Origin: Lampris incognitus
Taxonomy: Eukaryota > Chordata > Actinopteri > Lampriformes > Lampridae
DNA length: 64,000 nucleotides
Assembly (NCBI RefSeq): GCF_029633865.1
Contig: NC_079219.1
Span: 49,861,008 to 49,925,007 of the forward strand
Direction: 5' to 3'
Shown in pieces: positions 4,576-62,628 of the stretch; within the stretch, counting starts at the first letter, position 1, and each line of letters opens with the position of its first letter. The notes beneath the pieces are model-generated. The model saw only the letters and a list, made by a program, of their open reading frames with translations, did not search any database and was not told where the DNA came from. A program made the translations under genes and the position numbers.

Positions 4576-7413
4576 ATGGCATATTCTACCAGCACTCTTG
4601 CGGCAGGTTGTTTTGGGAAGGTATACAAACAGAAGTACAATGACACCTGGGCTGCGATAAAGAAGGTACCACAGCAACTGATCAGCAGAAAAGACCTGGA
4701 AAGGGAGTGTCAAGTCTACAAGTCAGTATAGTATGACCAAAGAAAATGGTTAACTGTTATATAAATGCTTGCAGCCTCAAATATGACTGCTTAGTCAACA
4801 CTAACTTTGCGGTTATCAAACTCTAACAGAAGAAAAAAATGTTCTTTGTTTGGCCATATTCAAGTAAGAACAAGTTCTTTCAAAGTTATTACAGACAATC
4901 TGGTTTTAAGCCTACCAGCCAAGGCCTTAAATCTGCCACTATGTCAAAAATGGCCCCATGATATCTTTTAAAAACCGTACCATGGGGTGTCCGGGTAGCG
5001 TAGCGGTCTATTCCGTTGCCTACCAACATGGGGATCACCAGTTCGAATCCCCATGTTGCCTCCGGCTTGGTCAGGCGTCCCTACAGACACAATTGGCCAT
5101 GTCTGCAGGTGGGAAGCCGGATTCTGGGTATGTGTCCTGGTTGCTGCACTAGCACCTCCTCTGGTCGATTGGGGTGCCTGTTCGGGGCGGGGGGGGAATA
5201 GTGTGTTCCTCCCACGCGCTACGTCCCCCTGGTGAAACTCCTCACTGTCAGGTGAAAAAAAGTGGCTGGTGACTCCACATGTATTGGAGGTGGTAGTCTG
5301 CAACCCTCCCCGGATCGACAGACGGGATGGAGCAGCCACCGGGACGACTCAGAAGAGTGGGGTAATTGGACGAATTGGGGAGAAAAAAAGGGGGGGGTGT
5401 ACCATGTGGCTCTTTTCAGAATTTATTTAAGAATAACACTTTTCAAATGTGATATGTAAACGTTAAATGGTTTACCTCATCTTTCTCACTTGCTGACTTG
5501 TTGATACGGACCCGCAGTAAGGCGAGTCATCCTAACATAGTGAAACTCCTGGGTGACATAACTCTGAAGGACTCAAAATGGATAATTCCACTAGAGTTCA
5601 TCTTCGGAGAAGATTTAGAAACCACCATCTTCAAACCAACCAAGTCGAAAATACAGGTAGGCTAATATCGCAGGTCGTTGTCCATCACTGAATGAAACGC
5701 TACCAGGATTATTAGTGACTGAAGTGTAGGCAAACCATCCTCTCTCTGTGAAAAAGACAAAAATTAGAGTTGAAAATTGCAATACTTTAAGGATTTCAAT
5801 TTCACTTTAATTGTGCAAAGGAGACGCAGAAGAAGGTGAAGGAACAGTTTAAAAAGGTCTTAATGACAGTCTTAGGGTTAAGGAAAAACAAATGCTAAAT
5901 AAGCTTGTGCAACACAATACCATGACGTCAGAAGTAAACAGTTTGCACATTCAGATCATATTTCTGTTGTTGATATCAACACGACTGAAAACGCTCTTCC
6001 GTTTCATCAACAGATGACTCCAGCTAACAAGGGCACTATCATCACAGGCATGTGTGAAGGGCTGCTTCACCTCCACAGCAAAGACATTGTCCATCAAGAC
6101 TTAAAGCCCGAGAACATCATGGTGAGTACCAGCCTCAGAAACATGTCAGTTTGATTTATTTTCAGTTCAGTTCAAAGTTACATCTGCTCAATGTGCATTA
6201 TTCTCTTTCATATACAGATAATCTGGCCTTGACAGGCCTAATACGTTTCCTCTTCCAGGCCTACCTTACTTCTTTAATTTTCTACAAGCAAAACTAAAAC
6301 TTATTTGTGGTATTGTCCAGCTGTTATGAATCACTATTATGGAAATTGTGCCCTTCTACTACCTGTCTTTATATGATATGATATGATATGATTTACAGTC
6401 ATTCAATTTACTTTGGTCTTCCTACATAATTTTTAGTAAAATGCTCAGAGTGCAGGCAATAACACTCTGACTGCCTCAATCCATAGCTCTGGTCGCTTGT
6501 AAAGTAGATGATGGAGAAACTGAAGCTTGTAAATTACCAGTCTGTTGGGGTTACAGCTGAATGCCTCAGGTATGAGAGACAAACTGACACAAGGTTTCTT
6601 CCACTGTCCTTTCAGGTGGAGCACAGCACTAACAGAGCTGTTATCATTGACCTGGGCTTGGCCAAGTTTTTCCGGAATGGTTTAAATTCTGCCATAGATA
6701 TGGGAAATGAAGCATACTCTGCCCCCGAGGTGCTGCAAAGGTGCAGCCAGCGTGATCAGCGCTCAGACGTGTGGGCGATGGGGAAAATAATCACAGAGCT
6801 GTGTGCGCGGGTCAGACTTTACACCCCCAGCGTCGGTCCTGAGAAAATCAAGGAGACTCTACGGGATCAGCCATACTGCCATGCCGTCTGCAGGATGGTG
6901 GAGACCAACCCTTCTCTGAGAGCATCCATGGGTGGGGTCATAGGTGACATAAGAAGGGCCGCTGGTGGGGGGATCACTGCCGGGCCTCTTCAACGGGGGC
7001 GACTTCAGCCACCGCTGCCGCACACGGGTATTCGAAACCGCACTACATCACCCATGAACAGGTCTCCATCACCGCTGAAATTTGAGCGAGCAGCTCCTCC
7101 AAAACCAGTAGGTCCAGCCCACACTCGGCCCATAATGCACCGCTCTCCTTCCCCACGACTGACTAAAGACAAGAACAAGCACCAGGCTCTAGTTCCTGCA
7201 GGAGCAGGAGGCCTCGATCAAGACTTTATGAAGATGATGCTCTACCAAGAGGCCTCTAAAGACCTCCCCCACAGCCTGCCAGCGACAGGCATGGTGAGGG
7301 TGCGGCGCTATGAGGCGAAGAACGGGGAAGTGGAAACGTGGGAGCAGAAAGAGGTGGTGATGCAGGGTGGACAGATCATCAAATATGATGATATAAAGTT
7401 TATAAACAAATAA
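4576..7413 (+). CDS. Ser/Thr-type protein kinase, divergent, 396 aa (5 exons, first non-coding inferred)
   Basis: The coding exons I read are 4576-4721, 5518-5656, 6014-6121 and 6616-7413. All have GT/AG borders and their phases match, giving 396 codons plus a TAA stop. ATG 4576 follows an acceptor directly, so an upstream non-coding exon is expected. The kinase fold is clear: a glycine loop AAGCFGKVY (residues 9-17), the AIKK lysine (K29), HQDLKPEN (122-129), DLG (143-145) and SAPEV (166-170). The family normally has HRD and DFG, so the catalytic Arg and the DFG Phe are replaced; the Asp, Lys and Asn are kept and activity is possible. Residues ~265-345 are Pro/Ser/Arg-rich with repeated SPSP motifs (possible phosphosites), followed by a short conserved-looking C-terminus. 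I do not recognise the orthologue. Intron 2 carries a SINE. Confidence 0.85.
4985..5398 (+). mobile_element. tRNA-derived SINE (family A), full length
   Basis: It has a tRNA-like head with an A box (GTAGCGTAGCGGTCTA) and a B box (AGTTCGAATCCCC), a ~300-bp body and an AAAAAAAGGGGGGG tail. It is flanked by the 8-bp direct repeat GTACCATG at 4977-4984 and 5399-5406. It lies in an intron of the kinase gene. Three other copies are in the window: 8175-8610 (-), 36501-36945 (+) and 51851-52240 (-). Confidence 0.85.
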
Positions 7414-14315: not shown

Positions 14316-14767
14316 GGTCGTGGCAATTATTTAATTCCACCCTGACATTAAGGAGGAACAAGACAAAAATCTCTTCCAGTATTGTCACACGATTTTGATA
14401 TATGTTCAATGAACAGATGCATCCAAGCCCAGGTGCTTGAATGCGCCCCAATTAATACAGTACAGTCTCTCTTACAGGGCAGCTGTCTGTTCTTCCCCTC
14501 CTTATCTTCCAGCTCTCAGCCACCAAGGCCACTTCTGAAATTAGTGTGTACACACTTGCGACACTCAGTGAGTCTCCCATATAATTCCTCTGCCATCAAC
14601 CAACAGCTAAAAACAGGCCTTTATTTGTGCACCTGGAGAAGACACTTTATAAGACTAACTTTGTTCTGTTACACATGGACTTTAAGCATCTATCTAAGCA
14701 ATGTGAGGTCATACATGGTGAAAGATTAAAAGTGAGCAAACATCAAATATGAATTGTTGCCATCACA
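14316..14767 (-). repeat. retroviral 3' LTR (452 bp)
   Basis: The minus strand starts TGTGATGGCAACAATTC at 14767 and ends near 14316 (...GCCACGACC; the 5' LTR has ...CGACA). It is collinear with 23861-24153 plus 29086-29342 of the 5' LTR. It lacks both the tRNA-like insert and the piggyBac block present there, so it shows the empty sites. Confidence 0.85.
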
Positions 14768-23860: not shown

Positions 23861-24153
23861 TGTCGTGGCAATTATTTAATTCCGCTCTGATATTAAATGA
23901 GTGTAACCGGTTATTTTCTTGCCCGGTGCGGGATTCGATACGGGGTATACTGTATCACAAGGCGACATCACTAACCGCTCGGCTAAAGGGTCAGACCCGT
24001 TAACTAGGGGCTAACGTGTCTTATTCGCAGTTTACATGAGGAAGAAGACAAAAATCTCTTACAGTATTGTCACACGAATTCAATAAATGTTCAATGACCA
24101 TCCAAGCCCAGGTGCTTGGATGCGCACCGATTAATACAGTACAGTCTCTCTTA
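23861..24153 (-). repeat. retroviral 5' LTR, proximal part
   Basis: Matches the 3' LTR from its U5 end (TGTCGTGGCAATTATTTAAT on the plus strand) to CAGTCTCTCTTA at 24153, apart from the 136-bp insert at 23902-24037. The rest of the LTR is displaced to 29086-29342 by the piggyBac/RTE block. Confidence 0.85.
23902..24037 (-). mobile_element. tRNA-like miniature solo LTR inserted in the retroviral LTR
   Basis: TGTAAC...TTTACA ends are flanked by TGAG on both sides (23898-23901, 24038-24041). The matching position in the 3' LTR is empty. On the minus strand it has an A-box-like TTTAGCCGAGCGGTTAG and a B-box-like GTATCGAATCCCG. Same family as the LTRs at 49477-49913. Confidence 0.75.
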
Positions 24154-24725: not shown

Positions 24726-27700
24726 AACCCAGCCACTGAGGATGCACAAGCCAGTGCATCCTTAGTGCCGGTCCCAAGCCCGGACAAATGGGGAGGGTTG
24801 CGTCAGGAAGGGCATCCGGCGTAAAATCTTTGCCAAATCAAATATGCGGATCATAAATAAGACTTACATACCGGATCGGTCGAGGCCCGGGTTACCAACG
24901 ACCGCCACCGGTACTGTTAACCAGCAGGGTGTCGGTGGAAACTATGCTACTGTTGGGCGAAGGAGAAGGAGAGGGGGAAAGCATGTCCAGAGGCAGCTAG
25001 AGAGGAGGAAGGGTAGGCATGTGGAGGTGAGAGTTGGAACTTTGAATGTTGGCACTATGACTGGTAAAGGGAGAGAGCTGGCTGACATGATGGAAAGACG
25101 AAAGGTAGGCATACTGTGTGTGCGAGAGACCAGGTGGAAGGGGAGTAAGGCCAGGAGTATCGGAGGTGGCTTCAAACTCTTCTACCATGGTGTGAATGGG
25201 AGGAGTAATGGGGTAGGGGTAATTCTGAAGGAAGAGTATGTCAAGAGCGTGCTGGAGGTGAAAAGAGTGTCAGACAGAGTGATGAGTATGAAGCTGAAAA
25301 TTGAAGGTTTATTGCTGAATGTTATCAGCGCATATGCCCCGCAAGTTGGGTGTGAGATGGATGAAAAAGAAGAATTCTGGAGGGAGTTGGACGACATGGT
25401 GGAGAGGGTACCCAAGGAGGAGAGAGTGGTGATTGGAGCGGACTTCAATGGACATGTTGGTGAAGGGAACAGAGGTGATGAGGAGGTGATGGGAAGGTAT
25501 GGAGTCAAGAAGAGAAATATGGAAGGACAGATGGTGGTGGATTTTGCGAAAAGGATGGAAATGGCTGTGGTGAATACATATTTCAAGAAGAGGGAGGAAC
25601 ACATGTTGACATACAAGAGTGGAGGAAAGTGCACACAGGTGGACTATATCTTATGTAGAAGGCGCCATCTAAAAGGGATTGGAGACTGCAAGGTGGTGAC
25701 AGGGGAGAACGTAGCTAGACAGCATCGGATGGTGGTCTGTAGGATGACTTTGGAGACCAAGAAGAGGAAGCGAGTGAAGACACAGCCGAAGATCAAATGG
25801 TGGAAGTTGAAGAAGGAAGACTGTTGTGTGGAGTTCAGGCAGGAGTTAAGACAGGCACTGGGTGGTAGTGAAGAGTTGCCAGATGGCTGGACAACCACTG
25901 CAGAAATAGTGAGGGAGACAGCTAGGAAGGTACTTGGTGTGTCATCAGGACAGAGGAAGGAAGACAAGGAGACTTGGTGGTGGAATGAGGAAGTACAGCA
26001 AATTATACAGAGGAAAAGGTTGGCAAAGAAGAAGTGGGATAGTAAGAGAGATGAAGAAAGTAGACAAGAGTACAAGCAGATGCAGCGTAAAGCAAAGAGA
26101 GAGGTGGCAAAGGCAAAGGAAAAGGCGTATGGTGAGTTGTATGACAGATTAGACACTAAGGAAGGAGAAAAGGACTTGTACCGATTGGCTAGACAGAGGG
26201 ACCAAGCTGCAAAGGATGTGCAGCAAGTTAGGGCGATCAAGGATAGAGATGGAAATGTGCTGACAAGCGAGGAGAGTGTGCTAAGAAGGTGGAAGGAATA
26301 CTTTGAGGGGCTGATGAATGAAGAAAATGAGAGAGAGAGAAGGTTGGATGATGTAGGGATAGTGAATCAGGAAGTTCAGCGGATTAGCAAGGAGGAAGTG
26401 AGGGCAGCTATGAAGAGGATGAAGAATGGAAAGGCAGTTGGTCCCGATGACATACCTGTGGAGGCATGGAGATGTTTAGGAGAGATGGCAGTGGAGTTTT
26501 TAACTAGATTGTTTAACACAATCTTGGAAAGTGAGAGGATGCCTGAGGAGTGGAGAAGAAGCATACTGGTACTGATTTTCAAGAACAAGGGCGATGTGCA
26601 GAACTGTAACAACTACAGAGGTATAAAGTTGATCAGCCACAGCATGAAGATTTGGGAAAGAGTAATAGAAGCTAAGTTAAGAGGAGAGGTGATGATCAGC
26701 GAGCAGCAGTATGGTTTCATGCCACGAAAGAGCACCACAGATGCGATGTTTGCTTTGAGAATGTTGATTGAGAAGTATAGAGAAGACCAGAAAGAGTTGC
26801 ATTGTGTCTTTGTAGATTTAGAGAAAGCTTATGACAGAGTGCCGAGAGAGGAGGTGTGGTATTGTATGAGGAAGTCAGGAGTTGCAGAGAAGTATGTAGG
26901 AGTGGTGCAGGATACGTATGAGGGAAGTGGGACAATGGTGAGGTGTGCGGTTGGAATGACAGATGGGTTCAAGGTGGAGGTGGGATTACATCAAGGATCG
27001 GCTCTGAGCCCTTTCTTGTTTGCAATGGTGATGGACAGGTTGACGGACAAGATCAGGCAGGAGTCTCCATGGACGATGATGTTTGCGGATGACATTGTGA
27101 TCTGTAGCGAGAGTAGGGTGCAGGTTGAGGAGAGCCTGGAGAGGTGGAGGTATGCACTGGAGAGAAGAGGAATGAAAGTCAGTAGGAGCAAGACGGAATA
27201 CTTATGCGTGAATGAGAGAGAGGACAGTGGAATGGTCAGGATGCAAGGAGTGGAGGTGACAAAGGCATTTGAGTTTAAATACTTGGGGTCAACTGTCCAA
27301 AGTAACGGGGAGTGCAGTAGAGAGGTGAAAAAGAGAGTGCAGGCAGGTTGGAGTGGGTGGAGAAGTGTGTCAGGAGTGATTTGCGACAGAAGGGTATCAG
27401 CAAGAGTTAAAGGGAAAGTTTACAAGATGGTTGTGAGACCAGCTATGTTATATGGTTTGGAGACAGTGGCACTGACGAAAAGACAGGAGGCGGAGCTGGA
27501 GGTGGCAGAGTTGAAGATGCTGAGATTTTCACTGGGAGTAACGAAGAAGGACAGGATTAGGAACGATTATATTAGAGGGACCGCTCAGGTTGGACGGTTT
27601 GGAGACAAAGCAAGAGAGGCAAGATTGAGATGGCTTGGACATGTGTGGAGGAGAGATGCTGAGTATATTGGGAGAAGGATGCTGAATATGGAGCTGCCAG

Positions 27701-27865
27701 GGAAGAGGAGAAGAGGAAGGCCAAAGAGGAGGTTTATGGATGTGGTGAGGGAAGACATGCAGGTGGCTGGTGTGACAGAGGAAGACGCAGAAGACAGGAA
27801 GAAATGGAAACGGATGATCCGCTGTGGCGACCCCTAACGGGAGCAGCCGAAAGTAGTAGTAGTAG
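24726..27865 (+). mobile_element. full-length RTE-clade LINE with 17-bp target duplication
   Basis: Flanked by the identical 17-mer ATTACTCTGTAAAAAAG at 24709-24725 and 27866-27882. A short 5' UTR (AGCCAGTGCATCC, then GGGCATCCGGCG) leads to one long ORF. The short 3' end CGACCCCTAACGGGAGCAGC, then CGAAAG and (TAG)n, is the usual tail of fish RTE elements. Perfect duplication plus an open ORF point to a young insertion. Confidence 0.95.
24844..27837 (+). CDS. RTE-clade LINE polyprotein: APE endonuclease + reverse transcriptase (997 aa)
   Basis: Intact from ATG 24844 to TAA 27837. The N-terminal ~50-280 residues form an APE-like endonuclease: TLNVGTM, RETRW, VIGADFNGHVG (about residue 196) and a DYILC block; the final block reads ARQHRMV where SDH is usual, keeping the His. 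The reverse transcriptase spans ~500-830 with YRGIKL, YGFMPRKST, FVDLEKAYDRV, GLHQGSALSP and the FADDIV catalytic pair (~747). The C-terminal ~150 residues (RLRWLGHVWRRD, KRRRGRPKRRF) are conserved in RTE elements. The single ORF, length and tail fit RTE (Expander/BovB-like). The product nicks DNA and copies its own RNA at the break. No stop or frameshift was seen, so it may be competent. Confidence 0.95.
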   Translation: MRIINKTYIPDRSRPGLPTTATGTVNQQGVGGNYATVGRRRRRGGKHVQRQLERRKGRHVEVRVGTLNVGTMTGKGRELADMMERRKVGILCVRETRWKGSKARSIGGGFKLFYHGVNGRSNGVGVILKEEYVKSVLEVKRVSDRVMSMKLKIEGLLLNVISAYAPQVGCEMDEKEEFWRELDDMVERVPKEERVVIGADFNGHVGEGNRGDEEVMGRYGVKKRNMEGQMVVDFAKRMEMAVVNTYFKKREEHMLTYKSGGKCTQVDYILCRRRHLKGIGDCKVVTGENVARQHRMVVCRMTLETKKRKRVKTQPKIKWWKLKKEDCCVEFRQELRQALGGSEELPDGWTTTAEIVRETARKVLGVSSGQRKEDKETWWWNEEVQQIIQRKRLAKKKWDSKRDEESRQEYKQMQRKAKREVAKAKEKAYGELYDRLDTKEGEKDLYRLARQRDQAAKDVQQVRAIKDRDGNVLTSEESVLRRWKEYFEGLMNEENERERRLDDVGIVNQEVQRISKEEVRAAMKRMKNGKAVGPDDIPVEAWRCLGEMAVEFLTRLFNTILESERMPEEWRRSILVLIFKNKGDVQNCNNYRGIKLISHSMKIWERVIEAKLRGEVMISEQQYGFMPRKSTTDAMFALRMLIEKYREDQKELHCVFVDLEKAYDRVPREEVWYCMRKSGVAEKYVGVVQDTYEGSGTMVRCAVGMTDGFKVEVGLHQGSALSPFLFAMVMDRLTDKIRQESPWTMMFADDIVICSESRVQVEESLERWRYALERRGMKVSRSKTEYLCVNEREDSGMVRMQGVEVTKAFEFKYLGSTVQSNGECSREVKKRVQAGWSGWRSVSGVICDRRVSARVKGKVYKMVVRPAMLYGLETVALTKRQEAELEVAELKMLRFSLGVTKKDRIRNDYIRGTAQVGRFGDKAREARLRWLGHVWRRDAEYIGRRMLNMELPGKRRRGRPKRRFMDVVREDMQVAGVTEEDAEDRKKWKRMIRCGDP

Positions 27866-40769: not shown

Positions 40770-43700
40770 GCCGTGGTTGGCGCTAGAGTGAGAAATGAAA
40801 ACGCGCTGTCTCTCGGAACGAGATGAATGATTCGTAATATATGTGTTATTTGATAGCCTCATTTTCATGCAGATTAGGTCATATTCATACTGGTTTAAAT
40901 AAACAATTTGATAGACAGAACTCCATAAAGCGCAGCCCGTCACCTATACTGATCGGCCTCATGTACACTACCGTTCAAAAGTTTGGGATCACCCAAACAA
41001 TTTTGTGTTTTCCATGAAAAGTCACACTTATTCACCACCATATGTTGTGAAATGAATAGAAAATAGAGTCAAGACATTGACAAGGTTAGAAATAATGATT
41101 TGTATTTGAAATAAGATTTTTTTTACATCAAACTTTGCTTTCGTCAAAGAATCCTCCATTTGCAGCAATTACAGCATTGCAGACCTTTGGCATTCTAGCT
41201 GTTAATTTGTTGAGGTAATCTGGAGAAATTGCACCCCACGCTTCCAGAAGCAGCTCCCACAAGTTGGATTGGTTGGATGGGCACTTCTTTGAGCAGATTG
41301 AGTTTCTGGAGCATCACATTTGTGGGGTCAATTAAACGCTCAAAATGGCCAGAAAAAGAGAACTTTCATCTGAAACTCGACAGTCTATTCTTGTTCTTAG
41401 AAATGAAGGCTATTCCATGCGAGAAATTGCTAAGAAATTGAAGATTTCCTACACCGGTGTGTACTACTCCCTTCAGAGGACAGCACAAACAGGCTCTAAC
41501 CAGAGTAGAAAAAGAAGTGGGAGGCCGCGTTGCACAACTGAGCAAGAAGATAAGTACATTAGAGTCTCTAGTTTGAGAAACAGACGCCTCACAGGTCCCC
41601 AACTGGCATCTTCATTAAATAGTACCTGTTAGAGCCTGTTTGTGCTGTCCTCTGAAGGGAGTAGTACACACCGGTGTAGGAAATCTTCAATTTCTTAGCA
41701 ATTTCTCGCATGGAATAGCCTTCATTTCTAAGAACAAGAATAGACTGTCGAGTTTCAGATGAAAGTTCTCTTTTTCTGGCCATTTTGAGCGTTTAATTGA
41801 CCCCACAAATGTGATGCTCCAGAAACTCATTCTGCTCAAAGAAGTGCCCATCCAACCAATCCAACTTGTGGGAGCTGCTTCTGGAAGCGTGGGGTGCAAT
41901 TTCTCCAGATTACCTCAACAAATTAACAGCTAGAATGCCAAAGGTCTGCAATGCTGTAATTGCTGCAAATGGAGGATTCTTTGACGAAAGCAAAGTTTGA
42001 TGTAAAAAAAATCTTATTTCAAACACAAATCATTATTTCTAACCTTGTCAATGTCTTGACTCTATTTTCTATTCATTTCACAACATATGGTGGTGAATAA
42101 GTGTGACTTTTCATGGAAAACACGAAATTGTTTGGGTGATCCCAAACTTTTGAACGGTAGTGTACTTGCATATGAACGAAGTAAGTTCGAGCCCCTTGTC
42201 CTGGGGCAGATGGCGAGCTTGTGGCGGGCGGGCGGTGTAACGTGTGAGTCGACACGTGGCTGTTTGGGTGGAGTTCCGGACGCCAGGCCCGGCTCATCTG
42301 TAGTCCATGGGCCAGAGCCCAAAATTTCCTATTTCGGTACACTCAAGGTGGCAAAACTTACTTATAATTTTTGAAAGGATCCATGTCTGTAGATGATATT
42401 TTGGTATGATAACCATTCCTGAGTGGCAGCTGTATCACAGTTATCAGCTCATGAAGTTAACCACCCCCTAAAGTAAATTGCATTTTAGACGCTGGTGCAT
42501 ATCCTGGTTTAGCCTCATGGTCAGGACATTTTTCAATGTTCTATAATATTGTCTTTGGTATCATTTTAAAGGGGACCTTCTTAGCTTTCATTCAAGCCCT
42601 GTTGTGGATATTTCTCACAAATATAGAGGTCACTTGAGCTCTTCAACCCGTCAATAACACACATCTTTCTGCAATGTTCGCCTAAACTATATACTTTCTT
42701 TTAGCCCTGTGGCATCTAGGAATATCAGGGACACAAAACACAAAAACTGGAATACTCACAGGACTGTAAAGATTCAGGAAATGTATAATATACCCATACT
42801 ATTTCATTGTGTGAGGTGATTGTGAACCTTAAATTAGAAGGGCATTATTACTAAGAAACTAACTAGACCAAAGCCAGTTAGTCCATGGGTCAGACCAGAT
42901 ATCGATATCACCCAAGGTGACACAACTTCACTGGTGCCATTTTATTTGGTACACTAACAGAAGTAAAATAATACATGATAACCTTTCCAAATGAGCAGCT
43001 ATTTCATTTTTCTTTCAGGAAACCTGTTTCTGTGCCTCTCACGATTGTGTATTTGCCCAGATTTTTACAAATATAGCATTTCAACACCCCTGGTACTGAT
43101 TAGCCTAGCTTAAACTCTGGGACAGTTCTTAGTTGGCCAACAACCAAGGATAACCAGTACTGTGTACTTCCATTCATTGTGCTAAGCTAGGCTAACGTGC
43201 AGCCAGATAGCTTTCTACTAAACACATATAGAGGAAACTGGTATCTATCTTCTTGTCTCACTCTGGAGAAGATTGTAAGCTAATTTCCCATAATGTTAGC
43301 ATGTTCTTTTAATGTATATGTTAGTATGATTAGTTAAAGTGGCTACGAGGAACTTTCATCTTGTGTTGATTTTAGCGGCCTCATGTGGACAAAATACAGC
43401 TGTTGCATAGCAACTAGGTAATGTATCTATGTGTGGCTATGTAAGATAAATAATGGTAATATGACGCTGGTGAAGCAAAGTAAACTTTGTTTTAGTAGTG
43501 TTCATACACCTAAGTTACATGTATTTGTTTGTATGTGGCAGGTGAAAACTGACTGAATATGGCCACTGGTGAACAAGCAAGTTTTTACCCAATACCAAAG
43601 CGCCCACGGGTGGAGTGCATTATCCACTGTTCTGATGATACAGATAAGCTGGTTTCACTACAAAGTGTCGACTCATGGAGAACTCTGCTCAGGGCAGCTC

Positions 43701-46700
43701 AGATACGAAATCATGCACCAGTTTTGAAACTGGCAAAAGACATTCCTGAGGGACAGATTCCAGCAATCTACTACCACAGAAAGTGTCGCAGTATCTTCAC
43801 TATGAAGCAAATTCTTGATGGCCTCCTTGCAAAAGAAAAGAAAAGTTGTGTCTCTGCTGAAGAGAAACAATCTAAGAGAGTAGCTCGACATGCTCCAAGT
43901 ACATCTAGGACTTATGATGCTGAGTGCATATTTTGTCAGAAAAATAGCAAATGTTCCAAGAGACAGAATACGAGAGAAGTACTGGTGCAGTGTCGAGAAC
44001 TGCGAGCTGATGCAAAGATCAGGAGTGCAGCCACAAAGAAAAGGGACAGCAGAATCCTTGCCATTGTGAGTAGAGACCGTGTAGCAGTTGAAGGGCACTA
44101 CCACAGGTCCTGCTATAGACTTTACACCAAAGAAGAGGTTTCCAAAGGAGAGGTTGCCAGCAATGAAGATGATGATGCTGCAGCCCAGTATGAAGCTACT
44201 GTGAATAAGGCATACAATGAGCTGTTCCTCTTCATCAGGATGGAGCTTTTTGGCAATCCTCAAGTGATGACAATGACTGATCTCTCTTCTGGACTGGTAG
44301 CTTCAATGAACTCCCAAGGCATTGCCCAAGTCAAGGAATCAACCAAGAAGCACATAAGGCGAAACCTAGAGAGTGAGTTTGCTGGAGCCTTGCAGATATT
44401 CCCTGATGAGAAAGGAAAATTCCTCCTCTATCCCGATAACTTGTCCATGAGGGAACTTGCCAAAGAAAATCAGTCTCTCAAAAGGGAGCTGCAGACCCTG
44501 AAAAGTGTCAGTGCACAAGATGTTATAGCCAAAGCAGCCATCAAATTGAGAGCAGACATTAAAAGTCAAGATGTTCCTCAAACCTGGCCGCCTGAAGTCA
44601 AACCAGAAGCAGAATGTCCTACCATTCCAGAGTCGCTCATTATCTTCCTGTACTCTCTACTCACAGGCTCAAATGATCCTGATCATGCATCCCAGAGAGT
44701 GCAGTGCCTTCTGCAGTCATTTGGCCATGACATAGTATATGCAGTGACATGTGGAAATACCAAGCCTTCCAAGCACATTGTTCTGCCATTCAGTGTCAAA
44801 TCGTTGACAGGAAATGTAGAGTTGATAAACATCCTCAACCGACTTGGTCACAGTGTGTCCTATTCACAGATGGAAGAGATCAACACTGCCCTGTGTCTCC
44901 AGAAACTCTCATCATCAGGGAGTGGCATTGCCCTTCCAGCTAACATCCATCCTGGCATATTCACAACTTTAGCCTGGGACAATATCGACCGTCTTGAAGA
45001 AACTGTCAGTGGTGAGGGAACATCTCACAGAGTCAATGGGATTGCTGTGCAAGCAAAACCAGTCAACCCACTTCCTGTCCAACCCATGCCCACTGTTCCC
45101 AAAACAAAGAAGAGAAGCATTGATGGACCCCCACCAATGTTACCAACTTACAATGCTGGACAACGGGTAGGGCCACCACAAAGCAAAAAGTCAGATGCCG
45201 ATACTGCAGCCAATACTAAGCTTGCCAGAGAGAAAAACCTTCTTTGGGTCCTAGCACGCATGTCACAACAAGAAGAACAGTCAGTCAGCAGCTGGACAGG
45301 CTTCAACATCCTGACTCGAGGAGAGATGACGGTCATCCCCGACAATATAGGCTATCTGCCTACCATCAATGCTCCAGCGACACAAATGTCTACTGTCAAC
45401 GAGGTGCTTAACCAGTCACTGAGCATCATGCAGTGCTTAGGCCTGAGGAAGATTGTCTGTGTCTTTGACCAAGCCCTGTATGCGAAGGCTGTCGAGATCA
45501 CATGGAAACACCATGACAAGTTCCATGATATCATCGTTAGGCTTGGGGTATTCCACACCATCTGCACACTGCTGGCAATAATAGGAAAGCGTTTCCAAGA
45601 TGCTGGACTCAAAGACCTCTGCATTGAGTCTGGCATGATTGCAGAAGGCTCAATTGCTGGTGTTATGGATGGCCGCAAGTACAACAGGGCAGTGCGACTA
45701 CACAAGCTCCTGTATGAGGCTCTCATGCGACTGACCTTGAATGGTTTCCTGTCCTGGTTGGAAGAAACTCACAGGAATGACATGGTTCACCTGAATGAGA
45801 CACTGAAGACCATTGACAGCCTTGGGAAAGAAGTCTCACAACATGCTTTGAAGGAGGTCCTCGAGAACAGCTCTTGTACACGCATCATGGATCTATTTGA
45901 AGTCTACCGTGAGTTCCTTAGAGGTGGAAATGGCAGCCTCTCGAACTTCTGGATGTCCTATTTGGACATGGTTGAAATCTTGTTGGGGCTCATCCGAACA
46001 TCCAGAGAAGGAGACTGGATGCTACACTTGGCTAGCATTCGAGCAATGATCCCATGGTGCTTTGCTTATGACAGGATGAATTATGCACGCTACCTCCCCT
46101 ACTACTACGCCCAGATGTCTGAGCTGCCCATCACACACCCAGATGTGTACACAGAATTCATGGAAGGAGGCTTCTCAGTCCAACTGGGCTCCACCAATCC
46201 CTTTGGCCGAATCCCTGTTGACCACGCTATAGAAGAAACGGTGAACAAAGACACCCAAACAGCTGGAGGGACAAAGGGATTCAGCTTGAAGCCAGGAGCT
46301 GTGACCAAATATTATCTCACAGCTGAGTATAGAAGCATGTACCTCAGACAGCTGAGAGACCTGACAGGTCAAGGCAGGTGCAAATGGTCTCATCCAGATC
46401 TACAGAGTCCAAGGATCAAGAGAGATGAAGCAGATGTCCAGTCTCTCATGGACCTTATGGAGAATAACTGGCTCAATCCTATGTCCCCTGATGAGATTGA
46501 TTTGGTTAGCCTCTCCACTGGCAACATGGCTCCACCTGATGTGACCATAGATCTCTTGAGAGCTCTTGAGAAAGGAGAAGAGGCCTACCAAGCATTCCAG
46601 CAAACAAGGTTAGATGCAGACCCACCACCTGTGAAATTCCACGACAAGATGACCAAGCAAAGTCTGAAAACATTCTCCAATGTCAGCACAAAACAAGCTC

Positions 46701-49700
46701 ATGGAAAGAAAGCACAGGATGTGGTTCTGAAGGCAGATAGAAACCTTTTCAGTCACATGATCCTGGTGGCTGAAAGCAGGAAGGTGAATCTGAAGGATGT
46801 CCTTGCCTACCCATTGGGCCCACTACCATGGGCACTGGCAAATGCTGATGGGTCCTTACGAAAAACAAACAAGGCTGCACTTGCCAGAGAGCTTGAAAAG
46901 AATGTATCTCCTGCAGAAGACATCCCAATCCCATCTACTTCCATCATTGATGGGATGAGCCTGGTCCAAAAAATGAATGGCAACAACAAAACCTTTGCAC
47001 AGGTGGCAGAGTCAGCCTTGACCCAGGTCCTCCATGAGGGAGCACAGAGTGGGAGGATTGATGTTGTTTTTGATGTCTATCACCAGACTTCGATCAAAGA
47101 TGCTGAACGACTGAACCGGGGTGGAGACATCACTCTCCAGTACAAGAATCTTGCAGGGGGACACCACGTCCAGCAGTGGAGAAAATTTCTGTGCAGTTCC
47201 TCCAACAAGACCAGTCTCATCAAGTTTCTGGTGGAAGAGTGAAACTCCCACGATACAGAGCTATGCTGCATGGCAAGGTGTTGTACATGACCTGTGAGGA
47301 AACCTGCTACAAGTTGACAGAAGATGGGTGTGAGGAAGCAGCAGAACTGCACTCCACACATGAAGAAGCTGACACCCGTCTGCTCCTGCATGCATTGCAT
47401 GCAGCAAATGCGGGCTCGAAGTCAGTTATCATCACAGCTGAGGACACTGATGTCATGGTGCTTTGTCTTGGCTTCCAGAAGGACATCACCTGTCCCATCT
47501 ACCAGAAGTGTGGGACTCAGAACCGTACACGGTTTGTCGACATCACCAAACTGGCAAGTTCACTTGGAGACAGCATCTGTGACAGCCTAATTGGCTTACA
47601 TGCCTTCACAGGCTGCGACACTGTCAGTGCATTTGCTGGTCGAGGGAAGCTGAATGCCCTGAAGATAGTGAGAAAGCACACTTCCTGCCAAGAGACTTTT
47701 AGTCAACTGGGACAGACATGGAATGTGAGTGATGAGCTGTTCCAGAAAATTGAGTAGTTCACCTGTCGGATGTATGTTGCTAATAGCAGCACTGCTGAGG
47801 TGAACAAACTGCGTTACCAGCTCTTCTGCACCAAAAGGGGAGAGGTTGAGTCCAGCCAGCTGCCACCATGTAGAGACTGTCTCTTTATGCATGTTCAACG
47901 AGCCAACTATCAGGCAGCAATATGGAAGTGCTGTCTGCAGGCTAACCCTGTGGTGCCAAGCCCTACTGAGTATGGATGGACAGACGATGAAGGCAAGCTG
48001 GCCATTTACTGGATGCGCTCCCCACCTGCACCAGATGTGGTCTTGGAAATGCTAACATGCAAGTGTGTGCATTCATGCAAAATGCCAAGCTGCATGTGCC
48101 TGTCAAATGGACTTCCATGCACAGACATGTGCAGGTTACAGACCTGCAGTAACCAAAAACAGCAGGATGGTCCAGAACTGGACTTTGAACTTGGGGAGTC
48201 AGATGATGAGAGAAACGAGCAGTTTGATGAATGACAGTGTGATGATTCTGATGGTATTACTGTGGTAGTAGTCTATTGATGCACAGGATGTTGATTCTGG
48301 ACTTGGTTACCCAGAGCTTGATAACAATAATGTAACCATATTCACATATACCCATTACCCTACCCATTACCATTACATATACCCACTAATGATATGGGAT
48401 TACATGTATCATTGACTAAGTATATGTAAATGTCAATGTTGTTTAAAATATTAAAATAGATCATTACCTCACTATGGTATTCCTTTTTATCATGTATTTT
48501 GATTTTGTATTTAAACAAATGTATAGAGACCAGTTTGTGACCTAACTGGCTTTGGTCTAGTTCTCATTTAAGGCTCACAATCACCTCACACAATGAAATA
48601 GTATGGGTATATTATACATTTTCTGAATCTTTACAGTCCTGTGAGTATTCCAGTTTTTGTGTTTTGTGTCCCTGATATTCCTAGATGCCACAGGGCTAAA
48701 AGAAAGTATATAGTTTAGGCGAAAATTGCAGAAAGATGTGTGTTATTGACGGGTTGAAGAGCTCAAGTGACCTCTATATTTGTGAGAAATATCCACAACA
48801 GGGCTTGAATGAAAGCTAAGAAGGTCCCCTTTAAAATGATACCAAAGACAATATTATAGAACATTGAAAAATGTCCTGACCATGAGGCTAAACCAGGATA
48901 TGCACCAGCGTCTAAAATGCAATTTAGTTTAGCGGGTGGTTAACTTCATGAGCTGATAACTGTGATACAGCTGCCACTCAGGAATGGTTATCATACCAAA
49001 ATATCATCTACAGACATGGATCCTTTCAAAAATTATAAGTAAGTTTTGCCACCTTGAGTGTACCGAAATATCGTCTGGCCCATGGACTACTGGGTGCATA
49101 TCTTCGAGACGTGCCCTAGGGTTACTAGTGGTGGGATTGTAAGCTAACTGTAGCTTACATCGCATGCATACGACTTTATCTCGAGGTTCCGTAACTTTTC
49201 CGTTTTCCGACCAACATCCGAAATATTTCCAAACGGGGCCTTTCAGATTGTTCCCCTCTCTCTCCGCGGCCGAGTCGGCTTGTCAACTCTGCCAGCTTTA
49301 CCACGCGGTTGTTGTGGAATTACTCACTCATTTCAGCTTGATCTACATTTTTCATTTTCGACCAATGAAAGCGCCTCCTCGCGAGAGGCGGACAGCCGCG
49401 GTAGCGCCGTTTTGTTTTTCACAAACGAATATTAATTTTCACACTCAAATGTCTTTTTTTTACGATTTGGTTATATTGTAGCGAATTCGGGGGGCAACGC
49501 AACCACAGGAACTGCCGCGGCCGGGAGGCGAACCCGTGTCGCCCGCACCGCAGGAGACGTCGCTAACCGCTCGACTTAAAGAGTCAGACCCGTTCGTCAA
49601 AGACCAACGTGTCTACTTATCCATGCACGCTACACTCTCCCCCTCCCCTTCCCTTCCGGAAGCACGTCCCTGCGCTTCAGCCTATCAGCTCCCTCACGCC

Positions 49701-50914
49701 TCTGGGCGCACGCGCTTCCGATGACCTCACGGTCTTACCAGCCCACTTCTGACACCAATGTAGCGAATTCGGGGGGCAACCCGAGATACCGTCGCCACAG
49801 CCGGGACGCGAACCCGTATCTCCTGCACCGCAAGCGACAACGTTAACCAGTGGACTAAAGGGTCCGACCCGTTAGTCAAGGACCAATGTGTCTACTTATC
49901 CATGCACGCTACAATATATTTGAATTTGGCATAGTCACTTACAGCCCCAGCTCCCACAGCTAGATTCTTCCAGCATTCCAATGCAAGCTAGATCAGACAC
50001 CAGAAATGCTGCCTGACTGAAAAATAAATAAACGTACCGTCTCCCCAAACCTGCTTCAGCAAACCCACCGCACAGCCCCCCTTTCACATTCTGACTGGAC
50101 TGGACTGGACTTGCCTGACAGAATACCGAGTAACTCCTCATGGACCTCCCTCCCTGTTTTCCTCCAGGAAATATTACACAAATTCGTCCATTTCATCCAG
50201 TGATCAAATAGACGCCCTCTCTCACTTAGGTATCAGGACGCAGGGTCAAATGACTGATGATAATTTGAGGGCAGGGACCAGTAACAAGAGACGAAGCCAT
50301 TTTAGAGCGTTCATTCCCAATTGTAGCTTGAACTACTTAATCTAAACTGCGAATGTGGATTTTAAAATGGTTCTGTATGTCTTCAGGTGTTGAATTTGAC
50401 ATCAAATAGTCAAATTGCTATTTCAATTCAAACAAATGTACAACCATAAAGACTTGAGTTACATGGTTCTCTAACAGTGGTGCTGCTTTTCTGGTGGAAA
50501 AAAAGTCATACCAGAGGTTATCAACCTAAACATAAATATTACATAATGTGCAGCTGCTCTATAGATAGAGATGTCTGACTCAGTAACTGTCTTCCAATAC
50601 CCCTTTCTTCCACTCTGACATAAAAGAAGATGAATGGTCTACAACTGCAAAACAATATTTGCTTGTAGGCTTAAAGCTAAAACCAAATTTGGCCCATGTC
50701 CCTTTACTTGACACGAATAATCTACTGATCACAAAGGGAAATTACAATTTGAAATGCACGCGCGCACACACGCACACACACACACACACACGCACACACA
50801 CACACACGCACACACACACTTGACAGCTGATGGTTGCTTATGGCATGAAAAAGGCTTGTACTGTCTCATAAAGAATTCATTTGACTCACTGGATATACAC
50901 ATACACAAAAACAT

Positions 50915-52894: not shown

Positions 52895-55800
52895 TAAATC
52901 AAAACTCAAAGGAAATTCCTAAATGTTTTATCACTACGGTGAACACCATAATAGGCCCTTCAGTTATTGACTGAGAGCCAACATTTTTCCATTTCTTAAA
53001 TTTGTTTAAAATATCTTAAAAATACTGCTTGGATCAGCATTCATACCCTATGTTTATTTTTCATCATATCTTTTTTTTTTTTTTTTTTAAATAATCATTG
53101 CATTGACTTTCAATTTTCCAAGCTGCTTATCCTAATTAGGGTCATGGGGTCATGGACAGGTCGCCAGTCCATCGCAGGGCAGATGCACAGACACACATAT
53201 CATGCACACCCAGGGGCAATTTAGTATTTCGATCAACCTGACTCCACACAGATAGGACCCTGGCCGGCTGGCCAGGAATCGAACCCAGAACCTTCTTCCT
53301 GTGAGACGACAGCGCTAATCACTGCACCACCGTGCCGTACTTTCAACTTGTATATATTAAATACATGCAACGTACCAAGTCAAATTCCTCATATGCAAAC
53401 ATATGTAGCCATTAAAACCGATTCTATCTCTGTTAGTTACATTATTTGTGGTGTAGTTGTTTGATCCAGTTGGGTGAGTGTTGGTGGATCATCCTCAGTA
53501 TGACAAAAAATTGAAAATAAAAAGCAAATTAATTGTGAATTTTCTAAAATTTCCCAACTTAGGGACAATTCATATATTACCATCTGAAAATATAACAGTG
53601 ACATTAAGACATGGCTTTTTGTCAGTGTTGTAGACAGTGTTATAAGTGCTCTAAGGCAGCAGTCCCCAACCACCGGGCCATGGACTGACACCAGGCCATG
53701 AGGAAACAATATTATTCAGCAAAAAAAAAAAAAGGAATCAATCAATTAGTTGCATTTTATATAGTGCTTTTCTAGTTGTAACAGCCACTCAAATAATAAT
53801 GAACATATGACATTATAGGCAATTTGTGCGGTATTACATTGAACCTGAACCTGTCTGCTTTTCCTGTACAACAGAGGAGCACTCGAATGAATAATCAAAA
53901 AAGTTTCATTGACAATAATACAACTGAAACTTTTAAGAAAACTGTAAATGAGTTATCGCTGTTCATGGCATCACAAACTGAGGATCTTGTGAACAACTTC
54001 AACTCAAAAATATGAAATGTCTTTGACAACATTGCACCTGTTAAATGTGAAAACAGAAAAACAAAACGCCCCCTGGAGAAATGGAGTGGCTGTTAGGCAG
54101 CTTAAGAGAGTGTCGCCAGGCAGAACAACAGTGGAGAAAGACTATACTTCAGGTTCAGCATGAAATTTACAAAGAGAGACTGAACAAGTACAGCAAAGAA
54201 ATTAAACAGGCCAGATAGTATTTTTCTCTAAAATCAATAATGAAAATGTTAACAATAGTAAAGTACTTTTCTCTACTATTGATTGACTTATTAATCCACC
54301 ATCTCCAAACCCATCAGAGATGTTGTCCACTGAAAAACATGAGCAACTCGCTACATTCGTCAAAAACAAACTATTGCTATTAGACAGAACATTAGTGCCT
54401 CATGATCCAGCCATGAACCTACCCTACAGTTCTCCAGAAATATCACTGGCGCCATGTCTCACTTTGACCCTCTAATACCATAAAAGCCTAGACAATATTG
54501 TTGGTCAGCTCAGGTCCTCCACCTGCTGCTTGGATCCTCTCCCTACAACATTTTTTAAAAATGTTTTTAATTGCTTAGCACATGATGTTTTAGAAATGAT
54601 TAACGGCTCTCTTCAAACAGGTATATTTCCTGCAGTACTTAAAACCAGGGGTCATCAACCTGTCGGTACACAGACAAACATGTCCATGGCAAGACGTGTC
54701 TCTGTCCGTGGCAGAAAAAAAAAAGTTGAGGAAAAAAAGTGTATTTTTCTCCCATGATAATATAAATTATCAATATTTAGACAAGAAAATGATTGCAATC
54801 TACTGTTTTCTGAGACTAATAAATTAATTTGGCCACAGTGCAACAGTAACATAGGTTACATCACGTTAACAGTCGGGATGACATGTGCATTAATATTGTA
54901 ACGAATTGAGGGGGCAGCCGGGAACCACCACAGCCAGGATGCAAACCCGGATCTCCCACAACACGGGTACCTACGTTAACAAGTCGACTAAAGGGTCCGA
55001 CCCATTAGTCAAGGGCTAGCGAGTCTATTTATCCGTGATCGTTACAATATGTAAAACTCCTGCAATTGCGCGCATTATCCCACTGTGAGTCAGGTCGCTA
55101 ACTAGATAGATAGATAGCCTAACGTTACAGCCCCCGAAAATGACCAAACATGCTTTTAATCTTTTGTAGGAAAAAGACTTATGTTTTTTTTTTTTCTGAG
55201 AGATGATGGGTTGATGAAGTGTATGAGATGTGGTCAGACAATGAAACAGCTAAAGTCAACAGCAGCGAGGGACCACGGTGAGAAATGGTGCAAGAAACGA
55301 ACAAAAACGGATTCTGTTGAGAAGGAGTGGTTTGCTAGCCAGGCAAAAGAGGACAGGACGGGGCAAATTAAGCTGATGACTAGCTTCGTCAGTCAAAAGA
55401 AAGTTGAACTTGAAAATGACCTCACTTTAGCTTTCAGACTTGCCAAACCATTTACAGCAGGTGACACTTTCAAAGAAACTGCAAAGAAAGTTCACCCGAA
55501 ATCGTCTGCGTTCAGCAGGGTCCACAGCAGTGCTAGCACTGTAGCCAGAAACACAGAGAAAATAGAGAAGTTAGCAGCTGCCAGCCTAACTAGCCTATGT
55601 GAAGCCTCTTTCATGCATGTAACGTGCTATGAAAGCACCGACTGTACTGATAAAACCCAGTTATTGATTTTCCAAAGATCTGTGGATATCAAGGCAAAAG
55701 AAATCAAGACTGAGTTTTTGAGCCTACTCAAAATCACAAAGAAATAGTGCTGACAACATTTCTAATGCCATCATTGAGTATTTCAATCGTGAGAACTAGC

Positions 55801-61486: not shown

Positions 61487-62628
61487 ATGTTATACTATTA
61501 GCAGCATGGTTTCATGCCACGAAAGAGCACTACAGATGCGATGTTTGCTTTGAGAATGCTGATTGAGAAGTATAGAGAAGGCCAGAAGGAGTTATATTGT
61601 GTCTTTGTGGATTTAGAGAAAGTATTTGACAGTGTGCCAAGAGAGGGGGTGTGGTATTGTATGAGGAAGTCGGGAGTTGCAGAGAGGTATGTAGGAGTGG
61701 TGCAGGATATGTATGAGGGCAATGTGACAATGGCGAGGTGTGCAGTTGGAATGACAGATGGGTTCAAGGTGGAGGTGGGATTACATCAAGGATCGGCTCT
61801 GAGCCCTTTCTTGTTTGCAATGGTGATGGACAGGTTGACAGACAAGATCAGGCAGGAGTCTCTGTGGACTATGATGTTTGCTGATGACATTGTGATCTGT
61901 AGCAAGAGTAGGATGCAGGTTGAGGAGAGGTGGAGGTATGCACTGGAGAGAAGAGGAATGAAAGTCAGTAGGAGCAAGACGGAATACGTATCCGTGAATG
62001 AGAGGGAGGACAGTGGAATGGTGAGGATACAAGGAGTAGAAGTGACGAAGGCGTATGAGTTTAAGTAGTTGGGGTCAACTGTCCAAAGTAACGGGGAGTG
62101 CAGAAGAGAGGTGAAGAAGAGAGGGCAGGCAGGGTGGAGTGGGTGGAGAGGGGTGTCAGGAGTGATTTGAGACAGAAGGGTACCAGCAAGAGTTAAAGTG
62201 AAGTTTTACAAGACGGTTGTGAGACCAGCTATGTTATATGGTTTGGAGACAGTGACGAAAAGACAGGAGGTGGAGCTGGAGGTGGCAGAGTTGAAGATGC
62301 TAAGATTTTTTCTCGGAGTGATGAAGAAGGACAGGATTAGGAACAAGTATATTAGAGGGACAGCTCAGGTTGGATGGTTTGGAGACAAAGCAAGAGAGGC
62401 AAGATTGAGATGGCTTGGACATGTGTGGAGGAGAGATGCTGGGTATATTGGGAGAAGGATTCCGGATAATGGAGCTGTCAGGGAAGAGGAAAAGAGGAAG
62501 GCCAAAAAGGAGGTTTATGGATGTGGTGAGGGGGGACATGCAGGTGGCAGAGGAAGATGCAGAGGACAGGAAGAAGGAAACGTATGATCCGCTGCGGCGA
62601 GCAGCCGAACGTAGGAGTAGCAGTAGTA
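61487..62628 (+). mobile_element. 5'-truncated RTE LINE with 15-bp target duplication
   Basis: From about 61499 it matches the RT and C-terminal part of the RTE at 24726-27865 (from YGFMPRKST onwards) and ends GATCCGCTGCGGCGAGCAGC then (TAG)n-like. The duplication GTTCTGATTAGGGCT is at 61472-61486 and 62629-62643. About 12 bp of filler lies at the 5' junction. It has an in-frame TAG at about 62067, a TGA at about 62168 and small deletions, so it is dead. It is more decayed than the full-length copy. Confidence 0.9.

Follow-up and report, generated by a model that had tools for sequence, protein, structure and literature searches.

The Question Raised by the Locus

The window analysed here is a stretch of 64 kb of Lampris incognitus DNA. 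At 49477-49913 it holds 437 bp of non-coding sequence, which raises the question of what kind of mobile element this is and how it could be transcribed. It is very probably a non-coding miniature LTR retrotransposon with a tRNA-like promoter in its LTRs, a joint reading in which the element would be transcribed by Pol III and copied by the enzymes of a partner.

Structure of the Element

The element is arranged as LTR-core-LTR and lies on the minus strand, as the primer site, the purine tract and the order of the A and B boxes all agree. The 5′ LTR (49759-49913, read 49913-49759) is 155 bp long with TG...CA ends, and the 3′ LTR (49477-49634, read 49634-49477) is 158 bp long, starting with TGTAGCG and ending with CGCTACA. 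The non-coding core between them spans 124 nt (49635-49758), and its predicted fold is no better than those of shuffles (z −0.79). Separated from the 5′ LTR by a single spacer base (49758) is the primer-binding site, the 16-mer TGGTGTCAGAAGTGGG (49742-49757), which we take to be complementary to the 3′ end of vertebrate tRNA-Leu including CCA. It occurs once in the window with both strands counted. At the other end of the core, a polypurine tract of 23 nt (49635-49657) abuts the 3′ LTR and is the putative primer of the second strand. Since purine or pyrimidine runs of 20 nt or more, homopolymers excluded, number 14 in the window, this tract among them, its position weighs more than its length. 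ATAT target-site duplications flank the element at 49914-49917 on its 5′ side and at 49473-49476 on its 3′ side. All of these parts had been proposed in the sequence-only reading (TG...CA repeats of about 155 bp, a 124-bp core, a 16-nt primer site one base off one LTR, a 23-nt purine tract against the other and ATAT duplications), and each was recovered, the repeats with coordinates exact to the base.

Assignment to the MITEs or to another DNA transposon class was considered and rejected, because the element has a primer site and a purine tract and lacks true terminal inverted repeats. The inverted match at its termini is only 12 nt long, and 5 nt of these belong to the flank.

Solo LTRs and Mode of Movement

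Further copies were sought in the window by BLAST and with a profile of four LTRs. Two were found, both solo LTRs on the minus strand. The first (solo1, 54897-55046, read 55046-54897) is 75% identical to the 5′ LTR and is flanked by ATAT. The second (solo2, 23902-24036, read 24036-23902) is 135 bp long and belongs to a divergent subfamily that is 60-67% identical to the others; its flanks are CTCA. In the comparisons below, L5 and L3 denote the 5′ and 3′ LTRs of the complete element. Duplications of 4 bp accompany all three insertions, ATAT at two of them and CTCA at the third; a target-site preference is possible, three sites being too few to say. Two short BLAST matches, of 13 nt at 20583-20571 and 18 nt at 26030-26047 (E 0.96 each), are attributed to chance.

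Solo2 sits inside a retroviral-type LTR, and a relative of that LTR piece at 14317-14474 (minus strand, read 14474-14317), outside the element, spans the insertion site uninterrupted. This empty-site relative shows directly that the tRNA-like unit moves as an LTR. Together, the solo LTRs, the 4-bp duplications and the empty site indicate that the unit moves in the manner of an LTR, unlike a MITE or SINE. The same evidence bears on whether the locus is a chance tandem pair of MITEs or SINEs, as the occurrence of similar units standing alone twice in the window might suggest. The primer site is one base from one repeat and the purine tract lies against the other, the pair shares ATAT flanks and TG...CA ends, and the solo units have 4-bp duplications and, in one case, an empty-site relative, all of which makes a chance pairing exceedingly improbable. 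The sequence-only reading had held that single units without an LTR-core-LTR structure would reveal a chance pair of MITEs; this was not borne out in the window, where the two solo LTRs with their 4-bp duplications oppose it.

The surroundings of solo2 contain a broken retroviral-type element (about 24150-20900, minus strand), whose 5′ LTR region is split by this Helenus-type solo LTR. Solo2 ends 44 nt upstream of the primer site of the retroviral-type element (about 23.86 kb), which is presumably of the tRNA-Pro type, and a zinc-knuckle ORF (22640-22284, PF00098) follows downstream. A second ORF of this element that was tested gave no Pfam match. A coding partner with a shared promoter was initially suspected here: the retroviral-type element at about 24.1-20.9 kb would be the autonomous partner and share the Pol III LTR, as suggested by the closeness of the tRNA-like unit to the primer site and by the zinc-knuckle ORF that follows. 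Against this, the unit is a separate solo LTR of 135 bp with its own CTCA duplication and is absent at 14474-14317, and the primer site is, by our assignment, of the tRNA-Pro and not the tRNA-Leu type. The partnership is thus hardly credible, and for this copy the empty-site relative rules it out. Because that relative lacks the unit, the retroviral-type element is regarded as a target of the miniature element and not as its partner. No autonomous partner was found in the 64-kb window, where the 16-mer has no second occurrence.

The tRNA-Like Unit of the LTRs

Matches to the A and B boxes were scored with consensus patterns. In L5, the A box (49844-49857) agrees at 11 of 12 defined positions and the B box, GGTTCGCGTCC (49804-49814), at 9 of 10. 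The same scores were obtained for the A box (49564-49577) and B box (GGTTCGCCTCC, 49524-49534) of L3. Solo1 has its boxes at 54990 (A, 10/12) and 54947 (B, 8/10), and solo2 at 23985 (A, 12/12) and 23941 (B, 8/10). All of these boxes lie on the minus strand, and all four tRNA-like units are sense-oriented relative to the element. The distance from A to B box is 43 nt in L5, L3 and solo1 and 44 nt in solo2, compared with 44 nt in the SINE-like tRNA heads of the window.

With the first A/B pattern, which has a longer D loop, the scores of L5, L3, solo1 and solo2 were reached in 73, 91, 409 and 59 of 1000 shuffles, respectively. With a short D loop, which was admitted only after the result of the first pattern was known, the numbers were 0, 0, 1 and 0 of 1000. 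A short D loop is normal in ordinary tRNAs. Because the pattern was changed after the first result, more weight is given to the whole-window control. In it, eight A/B pairs scored at least 20/22 on the two strands of the window, namely L5, L3, solo2 and five SINE-like tRNA heads, and 30 shuffled windows gave no pair of at least 20, one of at least 19 and 18 of at least 18. The proposal that both LTRs have A and B boxes at tRNA spacing therefore held, their combination being unequalled in the shuffled windows. Solo1 scored 18/22, and the window holds 16 rows, some of them overlapping, that score at least 18.

The unit does not register as a tRNA gene. ARAGORN called no tRNA in the 64-kb window or in the four LTRs at a threshold of 95%, and in the Rfam searches nothing in the window reached a gathering score and, at E ≤ 10, no tRNA family matched 49400-50000. 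From this, the unit is best described as a promoter-like relic, and the missing calls are not decisive since a promoter that has decayed may escape such scoring.

The window also contains SINE-like tRNA heads of two kinds. Those of the first kind have A-box starts at 740, 1420, 30805, 38746 and 53329 and A/B scores of at least 20, and those of the second kind lie at 4996 and 52229, with scores of 19 and 18. It can be asked whether the element is an ordinary Pol II-transcribed TRIM in which the tRNA-like stretch is a passenger brought into an ancestral LTR by a SINE insertion. When the LTR units were compared with the SINE-like heads, 5 of 28 comparisons exceeded chance, with no more than 1 of 200 shuffles scoring as well. 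These were L5 with three heads, and L3 and solo2 with one each; the other 23 are weaker. This likeness fits a SINE origin, and the B boxes of the solo LTRs are degraded (GGTTTGCATCC and GTATCGAATCC), which also favours a passenger. The B-box stretch as a whole (columns 97-120) is 64-68% identical and no better kept than the LTR overall. Conversely, where the A box begins (columns 49-60), identity over the six pairs is 89%, and no other part of the LTR except its 3′ end is kept so well. The box spacing of 43-44 nt is kept in all four units. Both observations speak against a passenger. An ordinary Pol II-transcribed TRIM with such a passenger is considered unlikely.

Divergence Between the Two LTRs

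L5 and L3 are identical at 128 of 154 aligned positions, with five further gap columns in the alignment, and their K2P divergence is 0.19. The 26 mismatches leave 26 nt at one end and 22 nt at the other untouched, as did 3 of 100000 random placements in a test that was chosen after the data were seen. Moreover, the matches to the solo LTRs are patterned. In 24 gap-free columns L5 and L3 differ; L5 agrees with solo1 and L3 with solo2 in eight of these, the reverse holds in three, and 13 fit neither. The first five of the eight (columns 49-75, around the A box) have no reverse column between them and include three transversions. The two LTRs of one element thus seem to carry two promoter types, and one LTR may have been altered by gene conversion or recombination between them. 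Because the mismatches avoid the ends and the matches to the solo LTRs are patterned, the divergence was not converted into an age.

Relation to Helenus and Other Elements

Helenus elements are TRIMs with tRNA-like sequence in their LTRs, described from fungi, animals and one plant (Kojima, 2024; PMC10886601). Among fishes they are listed for zebrafish and other Cypriniformes, a catfish, milkfish, sterlet, paddlefish and coelacanth, and the zebrafish family LTR-11_DR alone is given 5,575 LTRs and 2,618 internal portions (PMC10886601). The view taken from the sequence alone, that such a layout has no named counterpart in teleosts, is wrong in view of LTR-11_DR. The broader proposal of a Cassandra-like vertebrate TRIM with a tRNA-like unit is well supported by the structure; its novelty is not, Helenus having been named in 2024.

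The layout of the present element is one already described, five structural features of Helenus being found here in a comparison of structure. First, there are two LTRs and no coding region, and the 437 bp fall within the Helenus range of 311-1263 bp (PMC10886601). Second, boxes A and B occur in the LTRs, with the qualification that the first pattern was not significant and the B boxes of the solo LTRs are degraded. Third, the primer site is complementary to a tRNA; vertebrate Helenus primers are tRNA-His, -Leu or -Lys (PMC10886601), and tRNA-Leu is our assignment here. Fourth, a polypurine tract precedes the 3′ LTR (here the 23 nt at 49635-49657). Fifth, animal Helenus elements have 4-bp target-site duplications (PMC10886601), as do all three insertions here, and solo LTRs occur in both. 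Thus, one 64-kb window independently supports a TRIM type that was named only in 2024. Such elements scatter promoter-like sequences through genomes, and Helenus-type elements have been shown to inflate tRNA predictions in rust fungi (PMC10886601).

Searches of the literature for Helenus, LTR-11_DR and TRIMp3, and for fish TRIMs with tRNA-like LTRs, listed no relevant paper beyond PMC10886601. Five patterns were compared with viral contigs and gave one match, in L001, with 19 nt exact near an LTR end and 25 nt at 84% elsewhere; it was taken as chance. Two patterns found no match in a collection of genome contigs. Because these collections consist of viruses and prokaryotes, the misses are uninformative for fishes.

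The tRNA-derived SINEs (SINE2) share A and B boxes at equal spacing with the element. They differ from it in their mobilization, which is by target-primed reverse transcription, and in lacking LTRs, a primer site and a purine tract. The LTRs of the plant element Cassandra carry 5S rRNA sequence. Cassandra, too, is a miniature element whose LTR bears a Pol III-type promoter; it differs in that no Rfam 5S match was found here, in the window at gathering scores or in 49400-50000 at E ≤ 10. Its primer site is, moreover, described as of the methionine type (PMC10853983), in contrast to the tRNA-Leu type assigned here. Ajax from nemerteans is closer in some respects, being a TRIM of 421-434 bp with a Pol III-type promoter in its LTRs and a tRNA-Leu primer site, whereas its promoter is 5S-derived and its duplications are of 5 bp (PMC10886601), as opposed to a tRNA-like unit and 4 bp here.

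A Palindrome at the A Box

In L5, a palindrome, GACTAACGGGTCGGACCCTTTAGTC (49853-49877, minus strand), overlaps the A box at its start; altered versions of it occur in the three remaining LTR copies. This is a difference from Helenus as described in the main text of PMC10886601, where 'hairpin' and 'palindrom' have 0 occurrences. Across the four LTRs, 95% of 40 hairpin cells pair, compared with 11-65% in slid controls. Covariation among the four sequences is no better than in shuffles (139/500), and the LTR folds give z values of −1.26 (L5), 0.33 (L3), −3.15 (solo1) and −0.86 (solo2), so that one of four stands out. The palindrome poses the question of how a Pol III-transcribed Helenus-type LTR element ends its transcript and forms an R region. 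Speculatively, and with rather low probability, it could be a combined start-and-stop module for Pol III, with the start inside it in the 5′ LTR and a hairpin end in the 3′ LTR. There the full palindrome would be transcribed and fold into a hairpin immediately ahead of the A-box TTT, where the transcript would end. If so, the R region would be about 15-20 nt long without a TTTT run, resembling that of Cassandra, which is 18 bp. In yeast, RNA structure is reported to aid Pol III termination while T-tracts are necessary (PMC9278858). The shortness of the TTT counts against a hairpin terminator.

Proposed Replication Cycle

The two LTRs, primer site, purine tract, duplications, solo LTRs and sense-oriented boxes are present in the DNA itself; from there we infer transcription by Pol III. 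In the 5′ LTR, TFIIIC would bind both boxes and recruit Pol III. Initiation would be expected some 10-18 nt before the A box, the usual distance for this polymerase and here within the palindrome. The transcript would then cross the TTTT-free core and run into or past the 3′ LTR. TTTT is absent from the sense strand, as it is from 331 of 1000 shuffles, so its absence alone proves nothing. A Pol III transcript that ended in flanking DNA could still be used as a template, since the primer site and purine tract set the LTR ends. Pol III transcription of the published Helenus elements is likewise putative (PMC10886601).

The steps after transcription are proposed on the basis of the anatomy and of established LTR-retrotransposon biology. 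Host tRNA-Leu would prime the first strand. Once the strong-stop DNA had jumped to the 3′ LTR, the second strand would be primed by the purine tract. The donor of the enzymes, integrase included, would be an autonomous LTR retrotransposon; a Gypsy element with the same primer is the likeliest candidate, and Gypsy has also been proposed as the partner of Helenus (PMC10886601).

Other Features of the Window

An open frame of 1229 codons lies at 43553-47242 and had no Pfam match at E ≤ 0.001; its end is overlapped by a further frame at 47107-47757. A LINE-type frame with 1023 open codons and a reverse transcriptase domain (PF00078) is located at 24766-27837. Pieces of a second LINE-type copy, similar by eye in the ORF listing, are found at 61502-62587.
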